Of a stretch of DNA of 35,510 nucleotides, positions 4,321-12,568 are shown in pieces. The notes beneath the pieces are model-generated. The model ran no database searches. It saw only the letters and a list, made by a program, of their open reading frames with translations, and had not been told where the DNA came from. The DNA comes from an uncultured Desulfobulbaceae bacterium. Lineage in GTDB: Bacteria; Desulfobacterota; Desulfobulbia; Desulfobulbales; Desulfocapsaceae. The stretch spans positions 1 through 35,510 of the forward strand of contig CAISPV010000056.1 of NCBI GenBank assembly GCA_903887485.1, in the 5' to 3' direction. Each line of letters starts with the position of its first letter. The first letter of the stretch is position 1. The translations under genes were made by a program, and so were the position numbers.

Positions 4321-5592
4321 TTATCTGTCCTGCCGGCGCAGGATTCCATTTCGTGTTCCGCAGGTCAATAACGGTTCGGTGGTCAAGAAGACCCTGTTCC
4401 CAGGATTAGCACGGCTTATCTGTTCCCCCTTTTCGGTGCGCATGGCCATGACCGTTAATTGCATCACCTCAATTCCGGGCAACATATATTCGATCACATC
4501 CCCCGTCTCGAGAACGTTTCGGGCCTCAACCAGCGGATGGTCGCCCTCAACCCTGATCACTGCCACTGGCAGCACCGTCTGCTCCTCACGGGAGGTATGA
4601 TAGACCATCTCGTCGCTGCCGGGACGCTGATCAATAAAGTTCTCGGTGGTGCCGCGGGTGCCGGTCTTGGCGATTTCATCCCTGAAGATCGGAGGCAGGG
4701 CAATGGCCGCAGGCTCACGCCAGGCCTCCGGTGGAAGGGCGGCCAGAAAATCGAGGGCCGCACGGTAGATCCGCACCACGCCGCCCACATAAAAGATCGA
4801 CTTCATCCGCCCTTCAATCTTCAGGGAGTTGACGCCCGCTGCCACCAGTTCGGGCAGCCGCTCCAGGAGGCAGAGATCCTTGGAGTTGAAGATATAGGTG
4901 CCCCGCTCGTCTTCTTCCACCGGAAAATACTGGCCGGGCCGTTTCTCTTCCGTGAGCGCGTAGCTGTAGCGGCAGGGATGGGCGCAATTGCCCTGATTGG
5001 CGTCCCGTCCGGTCATATAGTTGGACAACATGCAGCGGCCGGAATAAGAGATACAGAGGGCGCCATGGACAAAGATCTCCAGCTCGCCCTGCACCTGCTT
5101 TCTGATCTCGGCAATCTCCACCAGTGATAGCTCGCGGGCAAGGTTGAGCCGGGAGACTCCCTGGGAGAGCCAGAAGGCCGCCGCCGCGTAATTGGTCACA
5201 TTGGCCTGGGTGGAAAGATGGACGGGAAGGTGCGGCACCACCGTGCGGGCCCGCATGAGGATGCCGGGATCGGCTATAATGAGCGCATCGACGGCGATCT
5301 GCTGCAAAAAGAGCAGATACTGATCAAGGTCGACAAGGTCCTGATTATGGGCCAGGATATTGATGGTCACATAGACCTTGACGCCCCGTTCATGGGCATA
5401 GCTGACTGCCTCGGCCATGGCCTCGGGGCTGAAATTTCCAGCCTTGGCCCGCAGGCTGAATTGCCTGCCGCCAAGATAGACGGCATCAGCGCCATAATGA
5501 ATGGCGGTCACCAGTTTTTCAAAGGTTCCAGCCGGGGCCAACAGCTCCGGTATAACCGGAACGGCCCCATTGCCGCTTTCTTTTTTAGCCAT
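4321..5592 (-). CDS. Peptidase U32-family protein, probable tRNA U34 hydroxylation enzyme (TrhP-like)
   Basis: The protein (423 aa from the ATG at 5592) opens with PELLAPAGTFEKL. It contains the U32 signature around EIFVHGALCISYSGRC, with four conserved cysteines at residues 180, 187, 203 and 207. The landmark KIEGRMKS..YVGGVVR..YR is present too. Members once called collagenase-like peptidases are now known in E. coli and Bacillus as TrhP/YegQ-type Fe-S proteins needed for prephenate-dependent 5-hydroxyuridine at U34. The cysteines fit that group better than a protease. No clear Shine-Dalgarno precedes the chosen start, and the frame is open to 5817, so the N-terminus is uncertain. It is divergent from mnmA, which also acts at U34. 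Confidence 0.85.
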   Translation of the reverse strand: MAKKESGNGAVPVIPELLAPAGTFEKLVTAIHYGADAVYLGGRQFSLRAKAGNFSPEAMAEAVSYAHERGVKVYVTINILAHNQDLVDLDQYLLFLQQIAVDALIIADPGILMRARTVVPHLPVHLSTQANVTNYAAAAFWLSQGVSRLNLARELSLVEIAEIRKQVQGELEIFVHGALCISYSGRCMLSNYMTGRDANQGNCAHPCRYSYALTEEKRPGQYFPVEEDERGTYIFNSKDLCLLERLPELVAAGVNSLKIEGRMKSIFYVGGVVRIYRAALDFLAALPPEAWREPAAIALPPIFRDEIAKTGTRGTTENFIDQRPGSDEMVYHTSREEQTVLPVAVIRVEGDHPLVEARNVLETGDVIEYMLPGIEVMQLTVMAMRTEKGEQISRANPGNRVFLTTEPLLTCGTRNGILRRQDR

Positions 5593-5679
5593 GGTAAAGT
5601 ATATTTCAGAGGTCAGAATGTCAGGTAATCGAGGATATTCTTTGATTACCGTAAGCAATGCAGGAATGCAAGGAGTTCG
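5593..5679. promoter_or_regulatory. Divergent intergenic region with a 7-bp inverted repeat
   Basis: These 87 bp separate the U32 gene from mnmA and should hold both promoters. GGTAATC (5624-5630) is inverted as GATTACC (5644-5650) with a 13-bp spacer, a geometry compatible with a dimeric regulator site. No clean -35/-10 pair was found. The site could be chance. Confidence 0.3.
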
Positions 5680-6714
5680 GTGAAGAAAAGACAGATTGGC
5701 ATCGCCATGAGCGGCGGGGTAGATTCCACCGCCTGTGCCCTGCAACTCCAGCAACACCATGACGTTCATGGATTTTTCATGCGGCTGGCTGGTCCCGATC
5801 TGGCCGGACAGGAACAACGGGTTCGCGCCGTGGCCGATCAGTTAGGGATCGATCTCCAGGTGATCGACCTCAGCCGTGAATTTAGCGCAACCATCCTCCA
5901 CTACTTCACGACGACCTATCAACACGGGCTGACTCCCAATCCCTGTATAATCTGCAACCATACGATAAAGTTTGGATCCTTCATGGATGCCATCCTGGCT
6001 CAAGGTATGGACGCTATGGCCACCGGCCATTATGCGCGGATTGAGAAGGGTGGTGACACATTCCAGCTATGCAAGGGCAGCGATACGGCCAAAGATCAAT
6101 CTTATTTTCTGGCCCGGTTGGATCAGCGCCAACTGAGTCATGTCCTTTTCCCTTTGGGTGAGAGCAAAAAAGAAGAAGTCTATCAGCTGGTGGAAGAACA
6201 AGGATTTACCGGTTTCCGGGGCCAGGAGAGCCAGGATGTCTGCTTTCTGGGGCCGACTCCGATCGGGCAGTTCCTGGGCGAACGCATTCCTCAGTCTGAG
6301 CAGCCTGGTAGAATTGTTACCCGAGAGGGGCAGGCGCTGGGCGTGCACCAGGGCCTCTTCCATTACACCATTGGCCAGCGCCGGGGATTGGGCATTGCCG
6401 ACAGCAGCCCCTGGTATGTCACTGCGCTTGACCCCAAAACCAATACCGTCATCGTCGGCAAAGAGGAAGAGCTGTACCGCAACAGGCTGCTGATCCACCA
6501 TCCTCATTGGCTGGCTGATCAGGCTCCAGAAGAAGGACAGATGTACCAGGTAAAAATCCGCTACCGGCATCAGGGCGCAGATGCCAGAATCAGCAAGATC
6601 GATGACCAGCAGTGGGAAATCCAGTTTGACAGCCCGCAACGGGCCATCACCCCCGGCCAGTTTGCCGTAATCTACGAAAGTGACAGGGTGCTCGGCTGCG
6701 GTGAGATCGAATGA
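5680..6714 (+). CDS. mnmA: tRNA-specific 2-thiouridylase MnmA
   Basis: MnmA activates U34 of tRNA(Lys/Glu/Gln) with ATP and transfers sulfur to make 2-thiouridine. The 344-residue product has the PP-loop SGGVDS at residues 11-16, the nucleophile Cys89 in NPCIICN and the second catalytic Cys188 in ESQDVCFL. It also has GHYARI and the C-terminal substrate-binding barrel. The start is GTG at 5680 with AGGAG at 5671-5675. The sulfur donors (IscS/Tus route) are not in the window. It is followed after 36 bp by mtaB, so the two are probably cotranscribed. Confidence 0.95.
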   Translation: MKKRQIGIAMSGGVDSTACALQLQQHHDVHGFFMRLAGPDLAGQEQRVRAVADQLGIDLQVIDLSREFSATILHYFTTTYQHGLTPNPCIICNHTIKFGSFMDAILAQGMDAMATGHYARIEKGGDTFQLCKGSDTAKDQSYFLARLDQRQLSHVLFPLGESKKEEVYQLVEEQGFTGFRGQESQDVCFLGPTPIGQFLGERIPQSEQPGRIVTREGQALGVHQGLFHYTIGQRRGLGIADSSPWYVTALDPKTNTVIVGKEEELYRNRLLIHHPHWLADQAPEEGQMYQVKIRYRHQGADARISKIDDQQWEIQFDSPQRAITPGQFAVIYESDRVLGCGEIE

Positions 6715-10568: not shown

Positions 10569-11861
10569 TTATTCCCTGATTCTGGCAATGATTCTGGTGG
10601 TGGAGGTCTCTGTTGTGAAGGGAATCCTCACCACCTTGCCGCCATTGGCCTTTACTTCGCTGGCTCCGACAATGGCATCTTCCTGCCAGTCTGCTCCTTT
10701 CACCATGATCTGGGGCAGAAGAGCAGTGATCAGGTGGAGCGGGGTGTCGTCGCTAAACAGGACAACGGCATCCACGCAGCCCAGCGCCGCCAAAACCCGC
10801 GCCCGTTGGGACTCCTCATTGATCGGTCGATTCTCACCCTTGATTGAACGAATAGAGCGATCACTGTTCAAACCAACCACCAGAAAATCACCCTGCTTCC
10901 TGGCCTGTTGCAGATACTCCACATGTCCTGCATGCAGGATATCAAAACAGCCATTGGTAAAGACAATCCGCTGCCCTTGCTTTTTCCTGAGTTCCACAAT
11001 CCGGGTACACTCGGCAAGGGAAACGATTTTTTCCTGGTCATCAAAAGGATAGCAGGCCGGGGCCACGGTATTAAAACGTTCCCGTAATTGCTGTTGTTTC
11101 TGGGGGTCAAGGGAGATCGTGGCCAACTGCTCTTCTTCACCTGCTTCCAACAGAATTTCTCCGGCCGGGTCAATGATCAGGGATTGGCCGCCCAGTTTAA
11201 GGTCATTGCTCATGCCGCATCCGTTGCCGGCAATCACAAAGGTCTGGTTTTCTATAGCCCGCGCCTGGAGCAGGGTGCGCCACTGCTCAATCCGCGCCAA
11301 GGGCCATTGTGCAGAGACAACCAGAAGATTCGCGCCCTGCTGACATTGAACTTTAGCTGTTTCTGGAAAACGCAGGTCGTAACAAACCAGTCCGCCTACG
11401 AATCCTGATGCCGTCGCCACAGGTCGTGGTGAATCTCCTTGGGTTAGCCATTCATCTTCATGCCAAAATGAAAAAAGGTGCTGTTTGCGTATCTTGCCTT
11501 GCAGACCGTCACTGTCACTAAAAAACAGGGTATTATAAAGCAGAACTCCCCGCTCATCATCAACCCTTTCCGCTAAAGTTCCCGCCAGCACAATATGATA
11601 GAGGGCTGCAAGCTCCCTTAATTGCTCAAGAAGCCAGGGGGTTTTTCGGCTGAGTTCGCCCAGTTGTTTATAAACGAAGCCGGTTGCCCACAGTTCAGGC
11701 AAAACCAGGATCGTTCCGGGAGGAGGTGGATTTCTCTGTAATGCGGCCCTAAGCCGGTCAAGGTTGACAGCAGGGGCAGCAGGAACGATTTCAAATTGAA
11801 AAAAACCTGCCGAAAGAAAGGAGGGGGATTCAAAAAGCAAAGGAGGATCCTCAGGAGTCAT
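10569..11861 (-). CDS. Carbon-nitrogen hydrolase fused to RfaE2/HldE-type heptose-1-phosphate adenylyltransferase
   Basis: One continuous 430-residue frame carries two enzymes. Residues ~15-265 are a nitrilase-superfamily amidase with a complete triad: Glu56 (LPELWATGF), Lys126 (RKQHLF) and Cys160 (GLVCYDLRFPE). This resembles omega-amidases of the YafV/Nit2 type. Residues ~285-430 match the cytidylyltransferase-like half of HldE: FTNGCFDILHAGH (301-313, HxGH), KGENRPIN, VKGADW and a TTETSTTRII end. That domain adenylylates D-glycero-beta-D-manno-heptose 1-phosphate for LPS core. The start at 11861 overlaps the previous stop as ATGA. The kinase half (RfaE1) is not in the window. Why an amidase is attached is unknown. 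Confidence 0.88.
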   Translation of the reverse strand: MTPEDPPLLFESPSFLSAGFFQFEIVPAAPAVNLDRLRAALQRNPPPPGTILVLPELWATGFVYKQLGELSRKTPWLLEQLRELAALYHIVLAGTLAERVDDERGVLLYNTLFFSDSDGLQGKIRKQHLFSFWHEDEWLTQGDSPRPVATASGFVGGLVCYDLRFPETAKVQCQQGANLLVVSAQWPLARIEQWRTLLQARAIENQTFVIAGNGCGMSNDLKLGGQSLIIDPAGEILLEAGEEEQLATISLDPQKQQQLRERFNTVAPACYPFDDQEKIVSLAECTRIVELRKKQGQRIVFTNGCFDILHAGHVEYLQQARKQGDFLVVGLNSDRSIRSIKGENRPINEESQRARVLAALGCVDAVVLFSDDTPLHLITALLPQIMVKGADWQEDAIVGASEVKANGGKVVRIPFTTETSTTRIIARIRE

Positions 11862-12568
11862 ATGGGGGCTGTTATCTGGAGCAGGGCTTTTTTCACAAGC
11901 TCGGCCACGGAAAAGATCTGTACTTGTCCCTGTTGGTACAGGCGAACCTGACTGGTATCTGTTGTCAGTGGCAGCAATATATCCTGACTGACAACGGCCC
12001 GGAGGCGACCGAGCGACCATGCCGCCAGGCCACGTACACCTCCGTCTTCTGATTGCAGATATGGGAGCAGATCGGCAATCACGCTCTGCGAAATCAGCAT
12101 TGCCGTCCGTCGCTCTGCTAGTCGGCCAATCCCCCAAAGCAGACCACACTGTAATGATGGCAGTTCCAGAAAATTTCCATCCTGATGTTCAAGGGGGCCA
12201 TCAGGCCGGAGATAGGAGATGAGCATATGAAGATATTCGTCGGCCAAACGATCATGATGCAACATGATCTCAGCCATTGCCTCCGGCGCTCCCCAGCCAA
12301 TTCCTCCAGACTCGTCATTGAGACTCCAGAGCAAACGCCGCATCACAATCCTGGCTGCCTCCATATCCTGATCAGCCAGACGTGGTACGACTTGACCAAA
12401 GACACTAATGGCATGCCAACGCACCGTCTCTTCAGGACGAGACAAGGCGGAAAAAAGAGGAGCGACGAGATCTTTTTCTGCATATTTCTGTACTTCACGG
12501 CTGATACGATCAAGATCTGCGGAGGCCAGAAGGGTAAGCACCTCCTGTTTGATTTTTCTGCTGCTCAT
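11858..12568 (-). CDS. HEAT-repeat-like protein
   Basis: The 236-residue product is helical, with repeated units of HEAT/PBS-lyase type (TVRWHAISVFGQVVPRLAD, GLLWGIGRLAE, GVRGLAAWSLGRL). It has a central WGAPEAMAEIMLHH segment. Such proteins usually bind other proteins; no catalytic motif is visible. I recall similar proteins in sulfate reducers (DVU0298-like), but this is unverified. The start at 12568 has AGGA just upstream; the frame is open further but without support. It follows ferritin after 13 bp and overlaps the nitrilase-RfaE2 gene by 4 bp, so the three form one operon. Confidence 0.7.
   Translation of the reverse strand: MSSRKIKQEVLTLLASADLDRISREVQKYAEKDLVAPLFSALSRPEETVRWHAISVFGQVVPRLADQDMEAARIVMRRLLWSLNDESGGIGWGAPEAMAEIMLHHDRLADEYLHMLISYLRPDGPLEHQDGNFLELPSLQCGLLWGIGRLAERRTAMLISQSVIADLLPYLQSEDGGVRGLAAWSLGRLRAVVSQDILLPLTTDTSQVRLYQQGQVQIFSVAELVKKALLQITAPI

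Follow-up and report, generated by a model that had tools for sequence, protein, structure and literature searches.

A Nit-type amidase joined in one frame to the heptose adenylyltransferase RfaE2 across the Desulfobulbales

In an uncultured member of the Desulfobulbales, a Nit-type amidase and an RfaE2-type heptose-1-phosphate adenylyltransferase are encoded as a single polypeptide, and the same one-frame architecture occurs in most of the genomes sampled from the order. We consider it likely, with a probability of about 70%, that this is a bifunctional protein, the product of neighbouring genes joined lineage-wide, and that its two halves carry out unrelated reactions. In most descriptions, RfaE2 either stands alone or is linked to its kinase. 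Both halves of the protein belong to known families; we did not find their combination, its spread or its decay in the open-licence literature searched, and the architecture may well be listed elsewhere. The order-wide join of RfaE2 to a nitrilase-family amidase parallels the NitFhit fusion of animals. It also tests the Rosetta-stone inference, in that genomes with a decayed RfaE2 keep the amidase, while one outlier looks like the reverse.

Architecture of the fusion gene

The window, by which we mean the whole 35,510-nucleotide stretch of DNA that was analysed, had been predicted to hold an in-frame amidase–RfaE2 fusion of 430 codons at positions 10,569–11,861. The coordinates, the length and the absence of internal stops hold, and the strand needs to be specified: translation runs on the minus strand, from an ATG at 11,861 to the stop codon at 10,571–10,569, and the plus-strand frame across the same positions contains many stops. 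The open frame reaches further upstream, to position 12,149. The start was placed at 11,861 because this ATG overlaps the TGA of the upstream gene as ATGA and because homology begins at this point (Table 1).

Table 1. Features of the fusion gene and its upstream neighbour in the window.
Feature	Position	Strand	Basis or role
DVU0298-family HEAT-repeat gene, upstream (start probably at Met 12568)	11858..12568	-	NF045662, 221.2 bits vs cut-off 75
Fusion gene, Nit-type amidase + RfaE2 heptose-1-phosphate adenylyltransferase, 430 codons + stop	10569..11861	-	ORF, Pfam, NCBIfam
Amidase (CN_hydrolase) domain, ~residues 18-262	11076..11810	-	Pfam, sequence comparison, predicted fold
E56	11694-11696	-	Amidase catalytic residue
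K126	11484-11486	-	Amidase catalytic residue
C160	11382-11384	-	Amidase catalytic residue
Linker, ~residues 263-275	11037..11075	-	Predicted confidence <50 at 266-270
RfaE2 domain, ~residues 276-429	10575..11036	-	TIGR02199 over cut-off; nearest solved chain by sequence 5x9q
HxGH motif of RfaE2 domain	10923-10934	-	Alignment

Pfam detects CN_hydrolase at residues 22–260 (2.5e-35) and CTP_transf_like at residues 301–426 (4.7e-18), and no other domain. The proposed pairing of RfaE2 with an omega-amidase-like domain is borne out by profile scores on both sides: the N-terminal half belongs to PF00795 (122.5 bits; cut-off 23.2) and contains the E56, K126 and C160 triad, and the C-terminal half exceeds the NCBIfam cut-off of TIGR02199 (206.5 bits versus 181.5). 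The motifs reported as complete, Glu56/Lys126/Cys160 and NGCFDILHAGH, are seen in the alignment with the numbering as given. The latter spans residues 303–313, and its H310 and H313, the two histidines of HxGH, are invariant in a 32-row alignment (A1). The predicted structure has a mean pLDDT of 88.3, with values below 50 at residues 1–11 and 266–270, and a pTM of 0.70; the model does not fix the relative placement of the two domains. Taken at the level of sequence, these data confirm a genuine two-domain fusion in which both predicted active sites are complete.

The amidase half of the predicted structure matches 3p8k, 2e11, 2w1v and 1f89, its nearest solved chains. This fold comparison concerns mostly the amidase half; the assessment of the RfaE2 half comes from its sequence and profile matches. 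Two specific identities for the amidase were dropped, since the fusion scores under both curated NCBIfam cut-offs: 95.1 bits for the YafV-type amidohydrolase NF007757 (PRK10438; equivalog cut-off 249) and 89.6 bits for the deaminated glutathione amidase NF033621 (cut-off 355). When the 32 members of A1 were scanned, both models matched all 15 amidase-bearing rows, with best E-values of 1.3e-38 for the YafV model versus 9.3e-29 for the deaminated-glutathione model. By sequence, the amidase appears closest to omega-amidase and Nit1-like enzymes while missing both curated cut-offs. Nit2 is described as an omega-amidase and Nit1 as hydrolysing deaminated glutathione (PMC9913352), and YafV is listed as an omega-amidase of methionine salvage (PMC3223725). 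Four further CN_hydrolases are encoded in the source genome.

Several known systems share parts of this design. The C-terminal half resembles HldC/RfaE2, the free-standing D-glycero-beta-D-manno-heptose-1-phosphate adenylyltransferase, in its full domain, its HxGH motif and the separate kinase, but it bears an N-terminal amidase domain, whereas HldC stands alone. The kinase–adenylyltransferase fusion HldE (NF008454) has a C-terminal domain of the same family, but its partner is the RfaE1 kinase instead of an amidase; a score of 192.7 bits, where the cut-off is 521, and the lack of a kinase domain in the Pfam scan rule out an HldE identity. With omega-amidase and the YafV-Xc1258-Nit2/Nit3 amidases (branch 10 of the nitrilase superfamily), the amidase half shares fold and triad; it differs from them by its fusion to RfaE2 and its scores below the NF007757 and deaminated-glutathione cut-offs. 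Glutamine-dependent NAD synthetase carries an N-terminal CN_hydrolase domain on an adenylate-forming enzyme, and 3sez is among the structures in the fold comparison; the fusion matches its model NF010588 at 48.3 bits, however, far under the cut-off of 479. Judged by analogy, the nearest parallel in design is NitFhit of worms and flies, in which an N-terminal Nit amidase precedes a C-terminal nucleotide-handling domain, the two being separate proteins elsewhere (PMC9913352). The NitFhit structure 1ems was among those compared. In contrast to NitFhit, the C-terminal domain here is the RfaE2 nucleotidyltransferase and not the HIT domain of Fhit, which the Pfam scan did not find in the fusion.

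Spread of the fusion and its unfused relatives

Some match to the fusion protein was found in 140 of the 146 order genomes, and in 107 of the 146 the E, K and C of the amidase and the two H of RfaE2 occur together in one frame at the locus; this count is defined by the presence of all five residues and is no test of their conservation. Several of the remaining genomes are cut by contig ends or broken (e.g. G005, G015, G122, G130, and G042). Outside the order, the phylum sample (297 genomes, from which 12 order members were left out) has a match spanning both domains in at least 28 of 285 genomes. The pairing, for which the original prediction had proposed a database search, is thus not isolated. 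Among the matches listed, the carriers outside the order belong to families f31, f34, f42, f43, f62, f69, f75, f78, f79, f91, f96, and f105. Named carriers include the cultured Desulfobulbus alkaliphilus (L076), a Desulfocapsaceae MAG (L066) and a Thermodesulfobacterium MAG (L079).

All five residues are kept in 22 of 22 loci examined from the at least 28 spanning phylum genomes (G201, described below, is a further one of these genomes). A larger alignment of order and phylum loci, to which 157 of 159 mapped loci contributed a row (each represented by its best frame, with the window's locus among them), shows substitutions at E, K or C in G201 and one RfaE2-only row and nowhere else.

Unfused relatives were studied in 32 phylum genomes, picked for strong unfused amidase or RfaE2 matches in the phylum survey. 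Amidase and RfaE2 are adjacent on the same strand in 15; in 11, RfaE2 is part of an HldE-length frame and the amidase is encoded at another place; in three, RfaE2 sits in a shorter frame away from the amidase; the last three have an RfaE2 match only. Among the best 80 named RfaE2 loci listed, 14 are fused, five have an amidase near RfaE2 and 61 have no amidase relative within the stretch, the flank length of which varies from locus to locus.

The junction was examined in 20 adjacent pairs, from named and unnamed loci. In 18 of these, every listed RfaE2 start precedes the end of the amidase stop codon, which makes the genes overlap; L271 and L277 also allow a later RfaE2 start. Twelve loci (L080, L085, L118, L159, L268, L269, L271, L273–L276, and L278), which group together in the amidase tree, have an ATG, GTG or TTG in the RfaE2 frame at the same offset of −55 inside the amidase gene, and this looks like a real RfaE2 start codon. 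The RfaE2 frame often continues without a stop deep into the amidase gene.

Overlapping genes of this kind represent either one step before fusion or one step after a split. In the amidase tree (76 rows, quick search), the 20 unfused adjacent pairs and six lone amidases form one starred group, and the fused rows lie outside it on several branches instead of forming one group; the RfaE2 tree (95 rows, quick search) is weak in its deep branches. The two trees neither show nor exclude a single origin of the fusion. As to direction, we tentatively favour fusion over later splitting.

Decay of single halves and the heptose genes

The fusion is the sole RfaE2 match in the source genome and also the sole match of its two-domain kind there. 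A check for a separate RfaE1 kinase, proposed together with the fusion, located one elsewhere in the genome (G000:C117:4915-5865; 376.2 bits, cut-off 345). Two glycosyltransferases exceed the cut-off of PF01075, the heptosyltransferase family, and a GmhA relative scores below its cut-off (180.7 versus 209.45). The HldD epimerase (TIGR02197) is over cut-off in nine of the 146 order genomes, the source genome not among them, so the product is more likely ADP-D,D-heptose. RfaE1 and RfaE2 are each over cut-off in 111 of the 146 genomes, compared with nine for HldD. By these profile scores, most order genomes seem to stop at ADP-D,D-heptose or to use another epimerase. One single-contig genome that is 99% complete (G011) has HldD and an RfaE1 just below the cut-off (340.8 bits) and lacks an RfaE2 match; it has either another adenylyltransferase or a stretch that is absent from the searched sequence.

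Counted by cut-off, 103 of the 146 order genomes have both RfaE1 and RfaE2, 27 have neither, and eight have only the one and eight only the other. Among the 27 that have neither gene, 13 retain an orthologous amidase (at least 120 bits and at least 180 residues). The other 14 fall below this filter; nine of these are at least 94% complete, and the remaining five are incomplete drafts, of which one shows a partial match. The amidase is thus not always kept when RfaE1 and RfaE2 are gone, and these 14 genomes are compatible with a functional tie between the halves.

In five of the 13 genomes (G067, G124, G144, G111, and G088), the amidase is followed by a degraded RfaE2 remnant of about 100 residues. 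HxGH and the C-terminal STT motif are gone from all five, Pfam no longer detects a second domain, and the E, K and C of the amidase are retained. Three of the five (G144, G111, and G088) are single-contig genomes. In the amidase tree, the starred branches require the RfaE2-decay label to change three times or more. The RfaE2 parts of the remnants are 0.22–0.56 identical to those of ten intact relatives, compared with 0.54–0.86 between intact pairs and 0.35–0.67 for the amidase halves in the same remnant comparisons. The reverse was seen in G201 (L160; G201:C38, 3501-4946, minus strand), where the RfaE2 motifs are intact and the amidase sites read D, G, and S; this is a single draft genome, and the gene stretch includes unknown bases. 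The amidase can outlive RfaE1 and RfaE2, and RfaE2 outlives the amidase residues in one outlier. Since one half decays while the other stays, the halves probably have separate jobs.

Presence or absence of RfaE2 tends to follow that of its kinase, a co-loss that is weakened by correction for kinship. A tree-based pairing of 124 rows gave 4.2 pairs for and 1.0 against, with a median p of 0.375, which is not significant. After dropping six rows in which a gene is truncated or broken (G029, G042, G025, G030, G060, and G125), the pairing gave 4.8 for and 0 against, with p = 0.0625, the minimum for five pairs.

Roles of the two halves and neighbouring genes

In the reading that we favour, the C-terminal half would be the cell's only RfaE2/HldC and, together with the separate RfaE1 kinase, would provide lipopolysaccharide synthesis with ADP-heptose, most likely the D,D form. 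The N-terminal half, of the Nit type (omega-amidase/YafV- or Nit1-like), would hydrolyse a small amide by means of Glu56, Lys126 and Cys160, and this reaction would most likely serve housekeeping or clean-up and have no connection with heptose. The repair function that had been suggested for the amidase fits, by analogy, with its relatives. The two genes were probably joined because they were neighbours, often overlapping, in the phylum, rather than because one enzyme supplies the other.

The persistence of the fusion could be a sign of a functional tie, which would speak against separate jobs. The amidase might act in the heptose or LPS pathway, or be channelled with it, by removing an amide by-product or by passing its product or ammonia to a linked step, as in glutamine-dependent NAD synthetase. 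Fusion or linkage is indeed kept widely (in the 107 order genomes, the at least 28 others and the 15 of 32 chosen genomes with adjacent genes), the 14 genomes below the amidase filter also lack RfaE1 and RfaE2, and a LapB-like TPR gene lies near the amidase in four of 38 loci examined, all of them unfused relatives (L080, L085, L118, and L159). However, 13 genomes keep the amidase with neither kinase nor RfaE2, the amidase is located elsewhere in the 11 chosen genomes with an HldE-length frame, and 61 of the best 80 named loci listed have no amidase relative in their stretch; to our knowledge, the reactions of ADP-heptose synthesis contain no amide and that of RfaE2 uses no ammonia. We regard a pathway role as unlikely, and the same 13 genomes and 61 loci argue against the nucleotide-sugar step that the original prediction had offered for the amidase. 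Just as doubtful is the more specific proposal that heptose activation in the phylum has in the amidase a partner that has gone unrecognised, and that their linkage, first as neighbours and then in one chain, was selected because the amidase removes or recycles an amide by-product tied to LPS heptose synthesis. If this were true, the pair would be a Rosetta-stone clue that metabolite repair takes place in the heptose pathway.

Alternatively, the main role of the amidase half might be that of a scaffold on which RfaE2 oligomerises, or the RfaE2 remnant might play this part for the amidase, with catalysis being secondary. A precedent is the Nit core of C. elegans NitFhit, where a Nit tetramer carries Fhit dimers (PMC9913352). 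G201, with RfaE2 intact and the amidase residues lost, and the five genomes that keep about 100 residues of dead RfaE2 would suit such a role; on the other side, only G201 and one RfaE2-only row among 157 have E, K or C replaced, and the low identity of the remnants relative to intact pairs and to their own amidase halves fits decay better than structural constraint. A primarily structural role thus appears improbable. An artefact, in which a misassembly, missed stop or frameshift joins two genes, has a negligible probability: frames are broken or truncated in some drafts (e.g. G042 and L164), but the five residues stand together in one frame in 107 order genomes, among them the single-contig G066 and G133, which excludes chance, frameshift and misassembly and leaves no room for the stop or frameshift between the domains that had been named as a possible refutation.

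Around the fusion, no conserved LPS operon was seen in the 38 loci examined. A ComF-like phosphoribosyltransferase gene precedes the amidase in six of them (L084, at 5148-5960, L118, L156–L158, and L079); for this gene and the LapB-like gene, Pfam was run on one example each.

A more regular neighbour is the DVU0298-family gene. Using the window's gene as phmmer query in 149 loci with enough upstream DNA, we found a relative directly upstream of the amidase, and on its strand, in 54 of the 57 loci that belong to three families of the order (22 of 24 in f1, 23 of 24 in f12, and 9 of 9 in f4) and in none of the 92 loci of other families and from outside the order; the NCBIfam assignment to NF045662 was made for the window's upstream gene only. 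Two of the three loci that miss this neighbour (G049 and G134) have just a distant amidase. The gene occurs in each of the five genomes where RfaE2 has decayed and in the eight f4 loci with a lone amidase, and within the three families it is a steadier neighbour of the amidase than RfaE2. The DVU0298-family protein is possibly a functional partner of the amidase, and its linkage in three families gives a lead on two proteins of unknown role. DVU0298 itself appears in a table of CO-dehydrogenase genes in a published study.
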